Source: Pigoraptor vietnamica (Eukaryota; Opisthokonta; Filasterea). Taken from it: a stretch of DNA of 24,422 nucleotides. The notes under the pieces are model-generated. The model searched no databases. It worked only from the letters and a program-made list of their open reading frames with translations, and was not told the DNA's origin. How positions within the stretch are numbered: the first letter of the stretch is position 1; every line of letters starts with the position of its first letter. This document shows positions 7,609 to 21,640 of the stretch, in pieces. The position numbers and the translations under genes are program-made. Where the stretch lies: NCBI GenBank assembly GCA_943704525.1, contig CALSCQ010003375.1:1-24422 (forward strand). The letters run 5' to 3'.

Positions 7609-8705
7609 ATGGGCGCGCACTCTCGTTGCTACGACGTGGGAGGTGATGCCCTCTCAAGCGATCGCCAACGAAGGCGAAACCGAAGGCGCTTTAACTCGCC
7701 GTCCACGTCCTCTTTAGTCGCGGCCGCCCTCGTGCTCGTCGGGTTGCTATGTGCAGGTGCGCTTGCGACGCCGACTTTTAAAGTGGGACTCCTCCTTCCC
7801 TTCCACGTGGTGAGCGACCCTTCGATCGATGTCTACGCTGCCGAGATGGGCGACATTGCGGACATGGCGGCGGAGCTCATCAACAATCGATCGACGCCGC
7901 TCGTCCGCTCCCTCCTCGCGACGAACATCACGCTGAACGTCGTACGACGCAATGAGGGGTCGGACCAGCAGGTCGCGCTCTTTTCCGCGATAACTCTCCA
8001 CCAGCAAGACGCCGTGGACGTCGTCGTGGGCGCTGACTGGTCCGCGTGCTCGATGCTCACGCAGTTTTACTTTTCGGGAACGGGCATTCTCCAGATATCG
8101 GCGAGTTCGACGAGCGCCGCGCTGTCCAACCGGCAGCTTTACCCTACCTTCATGCGTCTTCCCCCTTCGGACGCGCAGCAGGGCGCGGCGCTCGCGAGCA
8201 TCGTACGATATCTCGGCTGGGACAACGTCGCGACGATATCGGCCGACGACGATTACGGCAAGCCTCTCGCGACGAAGTTCAGGGAGATGGCGACGTCCCT
8301 AAACGTGTCCGTCGTGCAGTCGCTGCAGCTCGGGCGTCTCGACAACCCGGCTGCGACGGTGCGGGTTGTGAAGGCCTCGGGCGCGAAGATCATTGCGCTG
8401 ATGTGCTTCACGGATCTCGCGATGGCGCTGCTGACCGAGTTTGCGGCGGCGGGAATGGCGACGAAGGAGTACGTTTACCTCGGCGTCGATGCGTGGCTGT
8501 GGCCGACGTCGTTCCAGGTGTACGGTGCGTACGTTGTTTGCAGCGATAGGAAGTGTTTGCATAATATGGTGTGCTTGCTGTGGTGTGCTTATTCACGTGG
8601 ATGTTCGCGAAAGTCATCCGTCAAGCGAAGCCAAACCTGACGTGCAATTGTCCTTCCCCCCAACCACCGCACACACTCGCACACGCACACATACACACGC
8701 GCACA

Positions 8706-8747
<42 letters not shown>

Positions 8748-9191
8748 GCGCGCGCACGCACGCACACACACTCTCACACGCACACACACAACAGGCAAGA
8801 CGAGCTTTGCCGGCGGCGTCCTCGGCGTCAATCCGTTCTACGGGGGCGCGGGGGCGTTTCAGGACATGCTGGACCAGATGACGGCGTACAAGGCGGCGAA
8901 CGCGAGCCGTTTCGCGCAGTTCAACCCTACCACGCGCGCGCTGTACAACGGCTACGAGGCGTATCTCTACGACACGTTCATGACGCTCGCTGGCGGCCTG
9001 TCGGCGTTTGCGGCGGCTGGACACTCGCTGCCGCAGGACGTGATGAAGCTGTATGCCATCATGAACAAGTGAGTGCCCTATCGCATTTATCACGCTCTCT
9101 GTGCGCGCACATGTGTGTGTGCGTGTGTGCGCGCGTACGCCCTGTGTGTGTGTGTGTGTGTGTGTGTGTGCATGTGTGCGCGCGTACGCCC

Positions 9192-9261
<70 letters not shown>

Positions 9262-11731
9262 TATGTCTATGTGTGCGCGCGTCCCATTGATTGGATGGAG
9301 GACGACACATACTACTCAAGCAGATGCATCTCTTCGCACGCCACCCCTTCCCTCTCCCTCTCTTGTCACAGCCCTGAACCCCACCCCATCCCACAGCGTG
9401 ACCTTCAGCGGCACTACCGGCCTCGTGAAATTCACCGCCGGCGAGCGTCTCGGCCGCTACATCATCGTCAACCGGCCGCCGGGCGCCACGCAGACCGTGT
9501 CGGTCGGAAGCGTCGACGCCGCCAACAACTTTGTCACCGTGCTCGACCCCCTCGCTCATATTGTGTGGGGGGAGGGGTCGTCGACCATTCCGTCGGATGC
9601 CATTTGCACGCCGCCGTGCACTGCGCCAGGAGGGACGTGCGTGAAGTCGGGAACCGCGTCTGTGTGCCGGTGTGCTTCGGGCTGGACGGGGTCGACGTGC
9701 GGCGACCTCCTCTTGACATACGATTCTTCGAGTAAGAACATCACGCCGATTGTCGCGCCTGTCGTCGTCGTGTGCGGGACGCTCATCATCGCCGCGATTG
9801 CGGGCGCCCTGTATGCGTTCCACTACGCGCGGAAGGTCGCCGCCGCGCGTGTGAGCGTTGCGCCGGCGCTCGACCTCGAGTCACCGATGGCGAAGGCGAT
9901 GAAGGTGATTGAGAACATTCGCCAGAACAAGCTCAAGGGGGAAGCGCTCGAAGCCGAGCTGAAGATCGTCGAGGACGCGCTCATCGCGAACAACATGTAC
10001 CAGCCGGAGATGGAGCCCGAGGTCGTCCACCAGAACATTGGACTCGAGACGGTCCAATTTCTCGACAATCTCCTGATGACGCGGCTGATGCCGGAACGCA
10101 AGACGAGCCGAAAGCCACGCCGGCCCTCGGCGTTCAAGGACCAGAGCATGGCCAGCATGAGCCACACGGGGTCGATGGGGGAGCGCGTGCGGTCGGACTC
10201 TACGAACGTGGAGGCGCGCGAGGTCGCGACGGTGCTCGAGTCTCTTGCGCGGTGGGACTTTAACATCTTCTCGCTCGAGGCGCTCACGATGGGTCACCCG
10301 CTGTGCGCGCTGACGTTCGAGGTGATGTGGAAGCTCGGCCTGTTCGAGGCGTTCCCGATCGACCAAGCGCAGCTCAAGCGCTTCCTCCTCGCGATGGAGA
10401 GCGGCTACATGAACCACAACGCCGTGTACCACACGTCGACGCATGCCGCGGACGTGCTCCACGCCATGTTTGTGTTTCTGCAGAACGGGCAGTTCCGCAA
10501 CCTCTTCTCTCCGAGAGAGATGCTCGCCGCGTGCCTCGCGTGCGTCGCGCACGACCTCGACCACCCGGGCGTCACGAACAGCTTCATGATTGCGACGGGC
10601 CACGAACTCGCGCTGCTATACAACGACACGGCCGTCCTCGAGAACCACCACAGCGCGACGTTCTTCAAGCTCCTCCAGGACCCCGACACGAACATTCTCC
10701 GCACGCTCGACCCCGTCGACTTTCGCCACGTGCGCAAGCTCATCTGCCAGCTCATTCTGTCGACGGACGTCGCGCAGCACTTTGAGCACCTCGCGAAGTT
10801 CAAGACGCGGACGAGCTCGGGGCTGCTGCAGATGGACAACGACGGCGACCGCTCCCTCCTGCTGATCATGGCCATCAAGTGCGCGGACGTGAGCAACCCC
10901 ACGCGGCCGAAGCACTTGTACGATGGGTGGACGGCGCGAATCATGGAGGAGTTTTACCGGCAGGTGCGTGCCGTTGCACTGTGGTGTTTGTTGTGTGCGT
11001 GCCGTTTTGGTGTTTGATGTGTGTGCGGCCGTTGTGTAGTGCGTGTGTGCGGCGTGTGTGTGCTATGCGCGTGCGCGCCGGCCAGCTGTATTGCGCAGTG
11101 AATTCGTGGCATGCGCGCGTTTCTTGCAAATCCTGCGTGCTTTCAGACGTCACTTTACGCCCTTCCTTCTACTCACGCCACTCTTGTCTCCGCACACCAC
11201 AGGGCGACCGCGAGCGCGAGATGGGGATGCCCGTGTCGATGTTCATGGACCGCCTCAACCCGTGCGTCGCCAAGTGCCAGAACGGCTTCATTGAAGTCAT
11301 CGTGTCGCCCCTCTTCAAGGCCTTCACCGAATTTGTCGGTTTTGAGGGTGCGTGTTGGGCATCCGCCGTATGTGCGTGCGCACGGGACGTGTCTGCGAGG
11401 GCGCCTGCCTGCGCGCCGGCTTGTTTCTGTAAGCGGCAGTCATCAATGCGCTGCGTACATGGGTCGCACGTTTGTCTTGCTGTCTACACTCATCTTCGTC
11501 TCTGTTCCCTTTTTTTTTGGCATCCTTTCTCTGCTTCTCAACTTTCCCACCGTCTTCGCCTGGCTCCTTTTTCTCCCACCCGCAGAGCCGTTCGTCAATG
11601 TGACGCGCAACCACCGCTACTGGAAGAGGCAGCTCGACGGTAGCATCGGTGCAGACGCCGCGCTCGATGTCCCGTCGACGCAGGGCTCGCTTCGACAGGG
11701 GCGAGCCACGAGCGTGTCGTCGATGGTCTGA
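7609..11731 (+). CDS. Receptor-type cyclic nucleotide phosphodiesterase (PBP/ANF-like ectodomain + EGF-like + TM + PDE)
   Basis: Exons 7609-8524, 8795-9068, 9397-10963, 11203-11347 and 11586-11731 join in phase to exactly 1015 codons plus TGA. The start ACCATGG at 7609 is a strong initiation context; an in-frame ATG at 7555 is weaker. Residues 36-53 are hydrophobic (signal peptide or anchor). About 55-450 resembles a type I periplasmic-binding/ANF-receptor ligand domain ([36 protein letters not shown]). An EGF-like module spans C467-C498 with six cysteines ending [11 protein letters not shown] membrane span lies at about 512-537. The class I PDE domain (about 685-970) has H742 and H746, [12 protein letters not shown] (782-793) with metal ligands H782/D783, D894 in KCADVSNP, and Q945/F948 for purine binding. 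It would hydrolyse cAMP and/or cGMP at the inner membrane face under control of an outside ligand. Which nucleotide and which ligand cannot be read from sequence. Confidence 0.93.
8669..8792. repeat. (CA)n microsatellite in PDE intron 1
   Basis: A long CA tract, pure over 8706-8745, with CG-rich interruptions, runs to the 3' splice site CAACAG at 8794. No pyrimidine tract separates it from the exon. Confidence 0.95.
9111..9261. repeat. (GT)n microsatellite in PDE intron 2
   Basis: GT repeats with two GCGCGTACGCCCTGTG interruptions, suggesting local duplication. The tract lies soon after the donor at 9069. Confidence 0.93.
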
Positions 11732-11882
11732 GTGGGCGGTGTGTCCGCGGAACACGCCACGAGCGCGTCATCGATGGTCTGAGTGGGCGGTGTGTCCGCG
11801 GAACACGCCACGGGCGCGTCGTCGATGGTCTGAGTGGGCGGTGTGTCCGTGTCGCACATGCGCGTCGTGGATGGTCTGAGTG
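11705..11882. repeat. 51-bp minisatellite spanning the PDE stop codon, about 3.5 copies
   Basis: Units begin at 11705, 11756 and 11807 (period 51), followed by a shortened unit whose ATGGTCTGA lies at 11871. The first unit contains the last codons and TGA of the PDE gene, so SSMV-stop or a close variant is repeated in frame in the next units downstream of the true stop. Confidence 0.95.
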
Positions 11883-12655: not shown

Positions 12656-14905
12656 CTAGAACGGGTTGTAATTGACCGACTTGTCGTTGCCGAAGTTCTG
12701 GCGAATGCGGCGCCGGTAGATTGTGCGGTACTGCGGCGTGGGCGGGCGCGGGGGCGTCTCACCGACAGCGACGACGTCGCGAATGACCTCAAAGTGAGGG
12801 CGGACGGCGACGCGCTTCTCGAGGTACGCGCCAATTTCGAACGCGCCCTCGGCAAAAAACTGCCGCAGAGACTGCGCCACGTACCTCTCCGCCCACTCTT
12901 CGTCGCCGCCAAATTGCGCTTCCTCGTCAAACAGGCCCACGTCCCGCAGAACCGATCGCCGCCCGACAACCGTTCCGAGATCCACCCTCGACCCGCTCGC
13001 GCCGCAGCACAAGCGGTCGCGAGCGTCGCCCTTTCCGGCCCCGGCATGGGGGAACACGGCACGTATCGTGGCATCGAACACGGCGGTTCCGTTCGCGGCC
13101 TGCGCGGCGGCCGCACCCGAGTGCCCCGGCGGCAGGCGCAGCGAGTACGCAAATGTGACGTCCGCCCTGTTGTCCACGATCGGCTGGAGCTGCAGCTCGA
13201 TCCTATCCGGCGACGCAATGTCTCCCACCGTGTGCAGGGCCCACACGTCCCCGTCGCATTGCCGCAGTGCCTCGTTGCGTGCCGCATAGGGACCGTGGCC
13301 GGCTTCGTTGTGGACGACCTTCACGCGCGAGTCGCCGACACTCATCGCAAGAGTGGAGGCGGCCGAAGTGTCCGTCACCACCACGATTTCGAAATTCGCG
13401 TACGTCTGTGCAACCAGCGAGCGAAGCGTCGACAAGAGCGCCGGCGCGTGAGTGGCTTTGGTCGCGTGCAGGACGACGCACACCTTCGGAAGGGGCTCGG
13501 GGGTGCTCGACGCGTCGACGTAGTCCTCGAGCGTCCAGCGGAACTGGTTCGCGATGGCCGTCACATTGCGCGGCCCGCGAATGAGGCTCTGAGAGACGTC
13601 GGCGATAACGAGATTGGGAAAAAAGACGAACGAGGCGAGGTGGTGTGCCACGAGCACCGCGCGCAGCGCACCGGAATCGAACGTGTGGACCTCCTTGCTG
13701 ATCTCGAACGCGATCAGCTCAAACACCGAAGCGTCAATGCCCACGGCGAACGAGCCGTCGGTTACGAGCGGGTGGTAAAAGTCGCGCGACTCGTCCGTCC
13801 ACGTGAGCGACCGGACACCCCAGTTGTACTGGCTCGCGCCGAGGTAGAGGAGCTTCCAATCGCCGCGGATCGCGCGCACCTTGCGGTCAAACTCGGACGC
13901 GAACTGGGCGTGAAAGCGCACGTCGTCGTCGAGGAGGAGGATGCGCCGGTAGTTCCGCGCGCGCGCCGTCCCTATCACCTTCTCGCACGTTTTTAGGTAC
14001 GCAAACGCCCCTTCGCTCTTCAGCAACTTGTTCCCCCCGCGCCGTCGCTCGTACGGTCCGATCGGGCGCGACATGTAGCTCCTGTACTGCGCCTTGAGTT
14101 CCCCGGGCGTGAGGGCGGGATAGCGCTCGGCGACGATCCCCGCAGAACGCAGCGACGCGCGCATGGTGTCGCGTCTTCCGGTCTCGGCATTGACGTTGAC
14201 GTAGAACACGCGGTCAAAGTATTCGTTGACGGTGATGACGCCGTCTCCGTCCCGGTCGTACTGTGCCACGAAGGGGTCCGCGGGCGCACGATCCCTCGCG
14301 AACACAGGCGGTTCGTTCGCACCCCCAGCGCTGTGTGCTCCGTCGGCGTCCCCACTCTCCTCCTCTGGTGGGTCTCCCGCTTGAGAGAGCGTCGGATCGT
14401 CCGCTGTGGCATCGCCAAATGCGGTACCGTCCCGCCGCTCGATCGGGCCACGACCTCCGGGTCCGAGCCTTATTCGGTCCTGGTACGTCCGCATCCTTCC
14501 CCATGTGGCCACGTTCAGGCAGCACATGCCCAAAATGACAATGAGCAGCACATTGCCGCGTCCAAACGAGCGCGCCGAGCGACAGCGGCGAGCGGCCGCA
14601 CTCATCAGCGTCCCAAAAGCGCGTTCCACGTGTGAGAAGGCCATCGCCGCCGATTGCGCCCTCTGTTGCTGCGCATTGAGGCTGCTTGTCGGCACTGCAT
14701 CGGAACGAACGCCGCAAGGCGACGGCAGGCGCAACGGCGTGGTCGCGGACTGCGGGGCATTCGAGGACGCCACGGGTACTTGCACCGTAACCGACGACCC
14801 CGGCGGTGCATCGGCAGCGCCCGCGGTGTTCGAGGCAACTGCGACACCGGCGGCGGACGAAGAGGCAGCCGCCGCCGAGCGACTTGTGGGTAAGTCCGAC
14901 ATCAT
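12656..14905 (-). CDS. Golgi-type bifunctional glycosyltransferase: TM + EF-hand + GT25-like + GT2-like
   Basis: A single open frame of 749 residues starts at MMSDLP (14905) and stops at 12656-12658. The Ala/Ser/Pro-rich N-terminus contains one hydrophobic segment at about 118-134 (GNVLLIVILGMCCLNVATW), giving a type II membrane topology typical of Golgi transferases. A canonical EF-hand loop D217-D219-D221-T225-E228 (DRDGDGVITVNE) runs directly into a GT25/LPS-type domain: DRVFYVNVNAETGRRDTM (231-248), SEGAFAYLKTC, and LLLDDDVRF (323-331), whose acidic triad should bind metal and nucleotide sugar. From about 473 a second GT-A domain of GT2 type begins (PKVCVVLHATKATHAPALL; SLVAQTYANFEIVVV), ending with FGGDEEWAERYV (665-676), where the acidic pair could act as base. 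The usual GT2 DxD is replaced by HTVGD (558-562). Sugar donors and acceptors are unknown; GT25 members include collagen galactosyltransferases. The lack of introns is unusual beside its neighbours. Confidence 0.85.
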   Translation of the reverse strand: MMSDLPTSRSAAAASSSAAGVAVASNTAGAADAPPGSSVTVQVPVASSNAPQSATTPLRLPSPCGVRSDAVPTSSLNAQQQRAQSAAMAFSHVERAFGTLMSAAARRCRSARSFGRGNVLLIVILGMCCLNVATWGRMRTYQDRIRLGPGGRGPIERRDGTAFGDATADDPTLSQAGDPPEEESGDADGAHSAGGANEPPVFARDRAPADPFVAQYDRDGDGVITVNEYFDRVFYVNVNAETGRRDTMRASLRSAGIVAERYPALTPGELKAQYRSYMSRPIGPYERRRGGNKLLKSEGAFAYLKTCEKVIGTARARNYRRILLLDDDVRFHAQFASEFDRKVRAIRGDWKLLYLGASQYNWGVRSLTWTDESRDFYHPLVTDGSFAVGIDASVFELIAFEISKEVHTFDSGALRAVLVAHHLASFVFFPNLVIADVSQSLIRGPRNVTAIANQFRWTLEDYVDASSTPEPLPKVCVVLHATKATHAPALLSTLRSLVAQTYANFEIVVVTDTSAASTLAMSVGDSRVKVVHNEAGHGPYAARNEALRQCDGDVWALHTVGDIASPDRIELQLQPIVDNRADVTFAYSLRLPPGHSGAAAAQAANGTAVFDATIRAVFPHAGAGKGDARDRLCCGASGSRVDLGTVVGRRSVLRDVGLFDEEAQFGGDEEWAERYVAQSLRQFFAEGAFEIGAYLEKRVAVRPHFEVIRDVVAVGETPPRPPTPQYRTIYRRRIRQNFGNDKSVNYNPF

Positions 14906-15589
14906 CGTGCCAGGTCGATTCCCTCGACGGCAACGGCCGAAGCGGCCTCAGTGAACACCAATGCGGGCTGCCGTCCCGCGCACAATTTCAATACCCCGCA
15001 GTCGAATTGGCGGTCGCTTACGCCATCAAACCCAAATAGAGCGCGGAATAACGATGAGGAAGCGCGGAATAGCGCGGGGCCGAGCGGAAAGGAAGACGAC
15101 CCAATTTGAATTCAAAAGCCGGCGTGAGAGCCGCCCGGCCCGGCAATTAATCTTACGGTGATGATGTGTCTGGATGCGAAGGCTTAGCGCGCGCGAGAGA
15201 GAAAGAGAGTTACACGCACATGCACATACGCACGCATGCACAACACCGGCCCTCAAACGCGCGCGAGTGGCGTATGCTGTCCTACGCGGTAAAATTTTCT
15301 CGAAATTTTGACATGGTTTTGACAGTGCTTGACAGAACCCCGGATGTAGGGTCCAGATGCGGTCTGGCAACAATAGTCCGGACACTATTGGGCCAAATTC
15401 GGCCGTGGAAAAGATCCGGTCGGATGGCAAGTACCGGCGGAACTGCCCCGGCTTCAGTTTCGATAGGACCGGGACCGAGATCGGATTAATGCCGGGCGTG
15501 GCAATTGATTGAACACATACACGCCGCAACTATCCGGCGAGCGCCGCGGCCCCTCAGACCACCGGCAGGCGCCATGGGTGCCGGTGGTT
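14906..15589. other. Spacer upstream of the glycosyltransferase gene
   Basis: No gene is supported. On the minus strand this is the promoter/leader of the glycosyltransferase and the downstream flank of the sterol reductase. It holds a short inverted repeat CAATAGT-CCGGAC-ACTATTG (15371-15390) and a near-duplicate AGCGCGGAATA at about 15040 and 15061. A minus-strand frame over 15026-15529 has no recognisable domain and lacks the window's codon bias. Confidence 0.5.
15371..15390. repeat. Short inverted repeat
   Basis: Seven-base arms CAATAGT and ACTATTG flank a 6-base centre CCGGAC. It could be a dimeric protein site or a small hairpin. It lies about 470 bp upstream of the glycosyltransferase start and about 200 bp past the sterol reductase stop. 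Confidence 0.6.
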
Positions 15590-19408: not shown

Positions 19409-21466
19409 CTACCGCCGCTTCGGGGGCGGGCCTGCCTTGGCCTTGATGCTCTGGCACTTTGGAATGTGTCGCTCTGCCGCCGCCTCGTTGAACTTGCGGC
19501 CGCAGTGCGGGCACGGCACGTAGTCGGGGTTCTCGGTGGGCGGCGGAGGGGGAAGGTCCGCGAGCTTGCCGCCGTTGGCCACGTGCTCCGACATCTCCTT
19601 CGCCGCGCGCACCGTCGCGATAAAGTTCTCGTGCTGCGTGCGCCACGACGCCTTCTGCTTGCGCCGCTCCACCTCCCGCTCGCGCTTCTCCGCCTCCCGC
19701 TTGGACCCCTTGAACTCCTCGAGTTCGGTGCCCTCGCGCCGCATCTTGCTTGCGTCAAACACCTTGCGCTTCTTTTTCGACGCCTTCGCGCACACATTCT
19801 GGTGCTTCGCGAGCCGGTCCAGCGCAAACCGCCGCCCGCACACGCTGCAGGGGCCCATCTCCCCGACTTCCTCCTGTTCCGCGGGAACCCCCTCGTCGTC
19901 GTCCCCAGCTGCCGCCGCAGCCGCCGCAGCCGCGCGCTCCTCGCGACGGCGCCGCTCTTCCTCCTCCTTCTGCTTGGCGGCCTGCGCCTGCTTTCGCTTC
20001 TGCTCCTTCGCGCGCTGCTCTGCCTCGCGTGCGTCGGCGTCCTCCTTCTCGCGCGCCCTCCTCTCTTCCTCCTCCTGTTGTTGCCTCTGCCGAGCCTCGC
20101 GTTGCCGCCGGTCCTCCTCCTCCTTCTGTTGCTTCGCCATCCGCTTGCGCTTCAGCTCCTTGATGCGCGCGAGCTCAGACGCGTCCGGCGCGTCGTCGTC
20201 CGCGGGTGCCTCGGCGCTCTCGGCCTCCCTCTCCCTCTCTTCCCTCCGCCGCCTCTCTTCGTCGTCGCGCTGCTTGGTGGCCGCCTGCTTGCGCTTTTGC
20301 TCCTTGATGCGGGCGAGCTCACTGGCCTCCCGCTCAAGCAAGTCCTTCAGCTCGGCCTCTTTCCGCGCGAGTTCCTCCATGCGCAAGCGGTCCGCGTCCG
20401 CCGCGCCGTCGTCCTCCTCGGTCTCGACGTGCCTCGCCTTCTTGCGGGAGGCCTTCTTCGGCGGCGGCACGGGCGGCTCCTCCTGCTGATCGTCGTAATC
20501 GTCTGCAGGGGGCGGCGGCGGAGGGGCCACCTTCTTCGCGCGCTTTGGCGGGGGCGGCGGCGGCGGCGCCTGCTCCTCGGCGTCCACGTCGTCGTCTTGA
20601 GGGGGCGGCGGTTGGGGCACGCGCCGCCGGGCGACGCGCTTGGGAGGCGGGCCCGGGGGTTCCTCGGGTTCGACGTACTCGTCCTGTGCTGGCGGCGGCG
20701 GCTGTTCCTTCTTACGCGACCGCTTTGCCGGGGGCGGCTGCGGCGGTGGCTGCGCGTCGTCGTACTGCGGGTCGTCATAGTGCGACTGCGGCTGGTTGAG
20801 GTTGCTGTAGCGCGTGTTGCGATGGCCCGCGCTGCCGCTGGGGGAAGGGGCGCCGATGGAGGGGATCACGCTGCGCTGCTTTGTGGAGGGCTCAAAGCGC
20901 GCCTTGGACGGGAGCGATTGCACGCGCTGGGCCTGCGCGTCGTACTGCTGCTGCTGTTGGGGCTGCTGTTGGGGCTGTGGCGGGGGAGGTGTGGAGTAGT
21001 CGCCCTGGTGCATTGACTGCTGCTGCTGAACGCGGCGGTAGTGGTGCTCGATCGGGGGGAGGTTCTTGTCGCCCTGCTGCTCACGCGCACGGCGCTCGCT
21101 GAAGAACGACCGAAGCGTCCCGCCGTTGGGAGGGCGCGTCGCGACGGGGATTCCAGCACCCCTCGACGCGACCGGGTGGCTCAGCACCTGGGGCGCCCCG
21201 TAGCCCCCCTGCTGTGTTTGATAGTGCTGCTGGGCGCCCATCTGCCGGTCGTACATCTCGCTGAGCCGGCGCTCCTTCTCCAAGAGAATTTTTCGCTGCA
21301 GCTGTTGCTGCATGAGCACGAGCCGCGAAGGCCGCTCGGCCCCCGCTCCATCGTCGTCGTACTGCGCACCCCCGCCGTACTGACCACGGGGCATGTACTG
21401 CGCGGTCGCTGCCATCCCCCCGTAGTGTTGCTGCTGTACGTGGCGAGGCATCGAGACGGCCGCCAT
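19409..21466 (-). CDS. ZC2HC1-like protein: disordered Q/P-rich N-terminus, charged coiled coil, two C2HC zinc fingers
   Basis: A single frame of 685 residues runs from MAAVSMPRHV (21466) to TAG at 19409-19411. Residues 1-200 are rich in Q, G, Y and P. Around 215-330, Pro runs alternate with KKxxRK and acidic D/E patches. Residues 340-525 are an almost uninterrupted R/E/K/Q coiled-coil-like stretch (ELARIKEQKRK recurs). Two ZC2HC fingers follow: C540-x2-C543-x12-H556-x3-C560 (CSVCGRRFALDRLAKH) and C652-x2-C655-x12-H668-x3-C672 (CPHCGRKFNEAAAERHIPKC), numbering within a residue. The second strongly resembles the metazoan ZC2HC1 finger. Family members are conserved in many flagellated protists and animals but their function is poorly known; a ciliary or cytoskeletal role is only a guess. 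No introns are seen, and repetitive coding DNA may allow length polymorphism. Confidence 0.87.
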   Translation of the reverse strand: MAAVSMPRHVQQQHYGGMAATAQYMPRGQYGGGAQYDDDGAGAERPSRLVLMQQQLQRKILLEKERRLSEMYDRQMGAQQHYQTQQGGYGAPQVLSHPVASRGAGIPVATRPPNGGTLRSFFSERRAREQQGDKNLPPIEHHYRRVQQQQSMHQGDYSTPPPPQPQQQPQQQQQYDAQAQRVQSLPSKARFEPSTKQRSVIPSIGAPSPSGSAGHRNTRYSNLNQPQSHYDDPQYDDAQPPPQPPPAKRSRKKEQPPPPAQDEYVEPEEPPGPPPKRVARRRVPQPPPPQDDDVDAEEQAPPPPPPPKRAKKVAPPPPPPADDYDDQQEEPPVPPPKKASRKKARHVETEEDDGAADADRLRMEELARKEAELKDLLEREASELARIKEQKRKQAATKQRDDEERRRREEREREAESAEAPADDDAPDASELARIKELKRKRMAKQQKEEEDRRQREARQRQQQEEEERRAREKEDADAREAEQRAKEQKRKQAQAAKQKEEEERRRREERAAAAAAAAAGDDDEGVPAEQEEVGEMGPCSVCGRRFALDRLAKHQNVCAKASKKKRKVFDASKMRREGTELEEFKGSKREAEKREREVERRKQKASWRTQHENFIATVRAAKEMSEHVANGGKLADLPPPPPTENPDYVPCPHCGRKFNEAAAERHIPKCQSIKAKAGPPPKRR

Positions 21467-21640
21467 TGCGCTCCGCGTTTGCGCGTGACTATGTCCCCCT
21501 CACCCGAAAAATCCGCGACAAACAGATTTCGGATGTGGCGATAGGTCGCCGCGACAGCGCGACCCTCACAAAATTGCACAAAGTACTATGAGAGATGCAC
21601 TTGAAGGGAGTTTGATGGTGCATGCGTTATTCGCATTTGC

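Follow-up and report, generated by a model that had tools for sequence, protein, structure and literature searches.

A predicted single-pass Venus flytrap receptor with a phosphodiesterase effector in Pigoraptor vietnamica

Described sensor-enzyme fusions and the Pigoraptor gene

Enzyme-linked receptors are the textbook makers of cyclic nucleotides. Receptor guanylyl cyclases and the receptor adenylyl cyclases of trypanosomes combine a Venus flytrap (VFT) ectodomain, one membrane span and a cyclic-nucleotide enzyme inside the cell; most of the trypanosome proteins carry two VFTs, and their activation is described as dimer-based (PMC6027212). Here we describe a gene with a comparable layout whose predicted product would break the messenger down rather than make it. 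The gene lies at 7609-11731 on the forward strand of a 24,422-nucleotide stretch of the filasterean Pigoraptor vietnamica (GenBank assembly GCA_943704525.1, contig CALSCQ010003375.1; hereafter the window) and joins a VFT ectodomain, through a single span, to a class I cyclic nucleotide phosphodiesterase (PDE).

Receptors fused to PDEs have been described in protists. RhoPDE, from Salpingoeca rosetta and Choanoeca flexa, is a light-sensing rhodopsin fused to a PDE, and the S. rosetta protein (SrRhoPDE) degrades both cGMP and cAMP, with considerable activity in the dark and an about twofold rise on illumination (PMC8774190). As in the window protein, sensor and class I PDE share one chain, and the stimulus directly changes cyclic-nucleotide breakdown, which for the window protein is a prediction; the RhoPDE sensor, however, has eight spans and responds to light, whereas the window protein has a single span, a VFT and a predicted cAMP substrate. 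The oomycete G protein-coupled receptor (GPCR)-PDE bigrams also place a receptor and a C-terminal PDE on one chain, within a set that includes tyrosine kinase-like (TKL) kinase and cyclase effectors and thereby parallels the effectors found in the source genome. Their activity is predicted, they differ from the window protein in having seven spans, and the sections of the oomycete account used here do not mention a VFT (PMC6033456). Venus kinase receptors (VKRs), known from animals with putative members in choanoflagellates, are likewise single-pass VFT receptors with an enzyme inside, but their effector is a tyrosine kinase. Amino-acid binding by VKRs was predicted from the same five positions considered below, of which the four other than Ser165 are less conserved, and recombinant VKR is activated by L-arginine (PMC2680970, PMC4026697).

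None of these fusions is a single-pass VFT-PDE, and among the matches listed in a search of the open-access literature by titles and abstract starts, with subscription papers and protein databases outside its scope, we found no VFT-PDE receptor. The first-pass annotation had named no well-described animal or fungal PDE of this architecture. That much holds for the exact combination; the broader novelty is reduced, with sensor-PDE fusions and VFT kinases and cyclases already published. The predicted VFT-PDE receptor is a new variant of the enzyme-linked receptors, with a predicted function.

Gene model, ectodomain and phosphodiesterase half

The spliced model, derived from sequence, comprises five exons with 1015 codons and a stop. 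Three relatives from the same genome, C1238, C165 and C10, serve for comparison throughout. The features of the gene are as follows.

7609-8524, + strand: exon 1, with the start codon, a signal-like N-terminus and most of the VFT ectodomain
8041-8043 (S145), 8110-8112 (T168), 8170-8172 (D188), 8254-8256 (Y216) and 8488-8490 (D294), + strand: alpha-amino-acid-contact positions in exon 1, placed by alignment to the calcium-sensing receptor (CaSR)
8795-9068, + strand: exon 2, continuing the VFT lobe, placed by tblastn to paralogue C1238
9397-10963, + strand: exon 3, a single open frame with the VFT end, EGF module, membrane span, linker and most of the PDE domain
9605-9700, + strand: six-cysteine EGF-like module, residues 467-498, placed by cysteine positions and sub-threshold in Pfam
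9734-9826, + strand: membrane span, within residues 510-540, placed by hydrophobicity
9839-10276, + strand: juxtamembrane linker, residues 545-690, conserved with C165 by alignment
10427-11337, + strand, broken by the intron at 10964-11202: PDEase_I catalytic domain, residues 741-964, from Pfam and alignment
11203-11347, + strand: exon 4, the part of the PDE with the presumed purine-binding glutamine, Q945, and clamp phenylalanine, F948
11586-11731, + strand: exon 5, with the C-terminal tail and the stop codon

All four introns have GT...AG borders. Splice sites were picked by their look, by homology and by frame, giving a model of predicted splicing, and at some junctions the frame likewise stays open with alternative choices. 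The predicted splicing is supported by intron positions that recur in the paralogues: introns 1 and 2 are shared with the C1238 model and introns 3 and 4 with C165, while C10 shares intron 4 and not intron 3. The GC content at codon positions 1, 2 and 3 (0.60, 0.45 and 0.85) is coding-like. Exon 3 (1567 bases) contains 522 whole codons in one open frame and extends into the PDE as far as residue 919 of the product; because this exon alone runs from the VFT end through the EGF module and span into the PDE, two genes are unlikely, and a two-gene reading would need a break within it.

Hydrophobic runs occur in the product at residues 30-59, at 510-540 (strong) and, more weakly, at 257-280 within the VFT, the last most simply a buried segment of that domain. 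A candidate AxA-type signal cleavage site, AGALA/TP, was found by reading in exon 1. In all four comparisons made, two of them in the PDE, dN was lower than dS (dS 0.59-1.16, values that make this only a rough test of selection). A pseudogene was rejected on the open frame, the intact catalytic residues and dN below dS. Relatives were sought in one eukaryote genome, that of the source, and in prokaryote contigs; in the latter, exon 3, a lone protein query able to pick up only close relatives, gave 14 pattern matches, none of them confirmed, and bacterial contamination was rejected on this result and on the four spliceosomal-type introns. The five exons and 1015-residue product proposed in the first-pass annotation are borne out by the GT-AG introns, the open frame, the domains and the introns shared with paralogues. 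By sequence, the gene is real and intact and belongs to a small family.

In Pfam, the ectodomain matches ANF_receptor (PF01094) over residues 104-422 (E 5e-47, 161.1 bits against a cut-off of 25.4), covering positions 20-349 of the 353-position profile and both lobes, and Peripla_BP_6 over residues 79-411 (E 2e-21). The best matches in the PDB are the CaSR (E 6.6e-19, residues 105-340) and then metabotropic glutamate receptors. By these matches, the ectodomain is specifically of the ANF, or class C, type. Class C receptors grip alpha-amino and carboxyl groups via residues S165, T188, D208, Y236 and D318 of mGlu1 (PMC2680970). Aligned to the CaSR, the window protein, C1238 and C10 each keep all five of these contact residues, and mGlu4 aligned directly to C10 has the identical five letters. 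The route to mGlu1 numbering passes through CaSR residues S147, S170, D190, Y218 and E297, which we take to be the equivalent positions. Amino-acid binding by the window VFT is predicted from these contacts.

The same positions were surveyed in other VFTs of the source genome, in 22 loci grouped under 17 labels, namely C165 and 15 of the 32 contigs listed with ANF matches, one of which contributed two places; C902b and C165 yielded no row. Among the 15 readable labels, which include the window, C1238 and C10, nine have all five residues in one or both of two query alignments; four more agree wherever they are readable, one with Glu replacing the last Asp. The remaining two differ, C1191 with S, S, N, V, S and C474 with Phe for Tyr. 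As read from these alignments, the five-residue signature is found in many of the VFTs but not in every one.

The catalytic half matches PDEase_I (PF00233) in the spliced product with an E value of 1.6e-82 (277.3 bits against a cut-off of 24.8). In the PDB, PDE4D ranks first (E 7e-72), followed by other PDE4s, by two chains with no name beyond Phosphodiesterase and then by PDE8A. Residues H742, H746, H782, D783, D894, N897, Q945 and F948 agree column by column with PDE4D. Of these, we take H742, H746, H782, D783 and D894 (HxxxH, HD, D) to be the metal ligands, Q945 the purine-binding glutamine and F948 the clamp phenylalanine. An Asn-Pro pair follows the last metal Asp, as in PDE4D, and we treat its asparagine, N897, as a pointer to cAMP preference. 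Because PDE4D is the best match and shares this Asn-Pro, our guess is that the window PDE prefers cAMP. The likeness to PDE4 lies in the metal ligands, glutamine, phenylalanine clamp and Asn-Pro, and the difference in the layout, as the mammalian PDE4 and PDE8 enzymes have UCR or PAS regulators and are not known as single-pass receptors.

A single strong span, besides the N-terminal signal-like run, separates the two halves, and the DLESP-like start of the linker was found by eye also in C10 and in a multi-span PDE, C687. In the product, Pfam gave no match to a rhodopsin or seven-span domain, and none at E <= 1 to Guanylate_cyc or to a kinase domain. Several identities were rejected: a receptor cyclase, as the product has no class III cyclase domain; a GPCR or GPCR-PDE bigram, given one strong span and no seven-span match; a VKR, with no tyrosine kinase domain; and a RhoPDE, with one strong span and no eight-span rhodopsin ahead of the PDE. 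The layout read in the first pass (hydrophobic N-terminus, PBP/ANF ectodomain, span and class I PDE with metal ligands and glutamine) agrees with Pfam and the residue alignment. Of the Pfam families then expected, ANF_receptor, Peripla_BP_6 and PDEase_I were matched, with EGF found only below threshold.

Intron 1 contains a (CA)n array (8670-8790) and intron 2 a (TG)n array (9143-9259). Pairing of the two introns around exon 2 is thus conceivable in the pre-mRNA: their duplex is computed at -272 kcal/mol, where 30 mononucleotide shuffles average -151, although shuffling removes the repeats and is therefore a weak control. Exon 2 has 274 bases, which three does not divide, and a transcript without it would lose the reading frame. 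A 51-base unit is repeated in tandem 2.8 to 3.6 times at 11705-11882, from within the last codons of the gene and across its stop codon; its copies match at 95% over 11705-11849 and at 89% over 11705-11882, which suggests a recent duplication of the gene end and 3' flank. Elsewhere in the window, a 763-residue frame at 12656-14947 (- strand) has a family 2 glycosyltransferase match (E 7e-17), a hydrophobic stretch and, by reading, an EF-hand-like DRDGDGVITVNE loop. Another, of 696 residues at 19409-21499 (- strand), has C2HC-type zinc fingers (zf-C2HC_2, E 7e-19) and is overlapped on the opposite strand by a 592-residue frame with no Pfam match. Searches of the window for tRNAs with ARAGORN and for Rfam families at gathering scores gave no match.

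Relatives in the source genome and a probable mosaic origin

The source genome (32.5 Mb, 1395 contigs) was searched with profiles exon by exon and the best candidates were scored, so that contig counts are lower bounds. A 17-base SSU rRNA pattern had no exact match, and a search for the EF-Tu family gave two matches at E <= 1e-30. PDEase_I matches fall on at least 18 contigs and ANF_receptor matches on at least 32, with both present on two, the window contig and C10. The six-exon C10 model (1174 residues) comprises ANF (E 4.4e-71), EGF-like modules, fn3, span, linker and PDE (E 1.7e-71). C165 (1027 residues) comprises Peripla_BP_6 (E 1.8e-12), fn3, span, linker and PDE (E 4e-82), with a diverged binding-protein ectodomain; it is not among the listed matches of the exon-wise ANF and Peripla_BP_6 searches, and Peripla_BP_6 passes its cut-off only once the gene is spliced. 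By these models, the genome encodes three or more receptor PDEs whose ectodomains are of the binding-protein type. The layout is thus on firmer ground than the first-pass annotation claimed, with at least two further genes that combine such an ectodomain, a span and a PDE.

The window's ectodomain twin is C1238 (L010, L047), 57% identical over residues 46-307, in which EGF and span are followed by a protein kinase and not a PDE. PK_Tyr_Ser-Thr matches two pieces of this kinase, at E 1.1e-11 (above the cut-off) and E 4.4e-4 (below it), and its later exons gave no clean join. In layout the C1238 protein resembles a VKR; its kinase looks TKL-like on reading.

In 60-residue segments, identity to C1238 is 42-67% for residues 61-510 and drops to 28% and then 17% in the two segments spanning 511-600; the C1238 model stops shortly past the kinase start, and the fall-off beyond residue 630 is lack of data. 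Identity to C165 is 16-27% for residues 31-510 and 53-85% from 511 on. The first segment, residues 1-60, is 37% identical to C1238 (49 aligned) and 39% to C165 (38 aligned). By alignment, the switch from one relative to the other coincides with the inner edge of the span, and the shared introns, 1-2 with C1238 and 3-4 with C165, are consistent with the two halves of a mosaic. On this comparison, the window gene combines domains of two kinds, a mosaic in which ectodomain and span are like a VFT receptor with a kinase and the cytosolic part is like the receptor-PDE lineage.

An unrooted FastTree of the PDE domains (18 rows: 17 from the source genome, mostly pasted exon pieces, and PDE4D as the sole outside sequence) joins the window and C165 as sisters (0.999), followed by C10 (0.923) and PDE4D (0.764). 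C624 (73 of 318 columns), tblastn pieces with E > 0.05 and C554, one of the contigs with a PDEase_I match, were left out. The simplest history would be one receptor-PDE lineage with an exchanged ectodomain, an exchange that may have run in either direction.

Other VFTs of the genome appear to sit on cyclases. C91 (L024, L048) has a VFT, span, kinase homology region, helix and a cyclase with, by reading, the E and C residues that are the rule for guanylyl cyclases, and reads as a canonical-looking, animal-like receptor guanylyl cyclase. On C121, pieces of a VFT, a kinase and a cyclase follow one another on a single strand, and C650 and C803 have VFT and cyclase pieces on one strand. Related sensors would so be carried by both makers and breakers of cyclic nucleotides. 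Kinase starts follow the VFT in C942 and C125, and possibly in C95 and C314, by reading and unconfirmed by Pfam, the C942 piece giving a sub-threshold STAS match instead. The kinase scan scored 134 of 718 candidates, so kinases beside VFTs are under-counted; the set of open frames left out those shorter than 70 amino acids or of low complexity. At L039:3021-5636, an 872-residue frame (C687) has at least four strongly hydrophobic segments and then a PDE domain, with a DLESPxxK linker start as in the window protein, and is by reading a multi-span PDE. Matches to 7tm_3, of class C GPCRs, fall on at least ten contigs, and none of those listed is among the 32 ANF contigs listed; as contigs are short, this is no more than a hint that few VFTs in this genome belong to class C seven-span receptors.

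Predicted mechanism, alternatives and meaning

We consider it reasonably probable that the gene encodes a single-pass type I receptor with an amino-acid-type VFT that directly controls cAMP breakdown, its gating, direction and substrate being predicted. The VFT would close on an alpha-amino acid or a close derivative, and closure would rearrange a putative receptor dimer. Through span and linker the movement would reach the paired PDE domains and shift their catalytic rate, with cAMP the most likely substrate, such that an outside amino acid would directly set the rate of messenger destruction near the membrane. Gating of the PDE by a ligand is what we infer from the sequence. More tentative is the proposal of a whole family of ligand-gated PDEs, in which an outside amino acid would change cAMP destruction and sensor and effector halves would be interchangeable, closely related VFT sensors being coupled either to a kinase or to a PDE, next to further VFT receptors with guanylyl cyclase as effector.

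Several observations weigh against the amino-acid-gated receptor. A ligand could switch breakdown off as well as on. C165 carries the same kind of PDE and has none of the five contact residues, in an alignment to the CaSR that is uncertain, which suggests that a receptor PDE can do without amino-acid sensing. The signature is common among the VFTs of the genome and would indicate a ligand class at best; it covers the alpha contacts and not side-chain contacts such as mGlu1 Lys409, so that it points to no particular amino acid. At the first contact position, the two query alignments conflict, reading S or V in C942 and S or D in C902a. A single-sequence structure model of residues 54-305, from exon 1, was unusable at a pLDDT of 33.5. 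The EGF module of the window product falls below its Pfam cut-off (hEGF, 14.7 bits against 29.3), as does that of C1238 (EGF_2, 20.8 against 22.1), with that of C10 above (EGF_DL_JAG, 30.9 against 27). In the PDE tree, the only outside row is weakly placed and most rows are pasted pieces, and the selection test is, as noted, rough.

The strongest competitor keeps the receptor PDE and changes the ligand, to a peptide, a sugar, an ion or a protein partner, or makes the VFT mainly a dimerisation or adhesion module. The absence of the contact residues from C165, whose inner half is closely related, speaks for it, and the VFTs of natriuretic peptide receptors bind peptides. We nonetheless regard it as unlikely, since the window protein, C1238 and C10 keep five of five contact residues and the best PDB match, the CaSR, itself binds amino acids. 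A constitutively active PDE that is merely anchored, with the ectodomain positioning the enzyme in a membrane domain such as the flagellum and no gating, would fit the common control of PDEs by location. The considerable dark activity of SrRhoPDE, the nearest sensor-PDE with data among those considered here, which light raises only about twofold, also lends this some plausibility (PMC8774190). Conservation of both the ligand pocket residues and the linker, unnecessary for simple anchoring, makes it distinctly less likely still. That a VFT receptor kinase fragment lies next to a PDE gene, as adjacent genes or through an assembly join, might be read from the sharp switch between two lineages and from splicing that is predicted from sequence. 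The switch falls in the middle of an unbroken 1567-base exon, however, the identical domain order recurs on two other contigs, and codon bias is continuous over all five exons, and we hold this explanation to be very improbable.

For the amino-acid-gated receptor PDE that we favour, we found no described precedent, that is, no chemical ligand directly controlling cyclic-nucleotide destruction via a single-pass receptor, among the open-access matches listed, judged by titles and abstract starts. The mosaic of C1238-like and C165-like halves offers natural chimaeras for probing how a VFT with a single span acts on enzymes of different kinds, and the protein may serve as a template for chemically gated cAMP-lowering tools, a chemical counterpart of RhoPDE. 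If the PDE is gated, the chain from GPCR through G protein to PDE would shrink to one molecule, and a family of ligand-gated PDEs, if true, would be the mirror image of the receptor cyclases.

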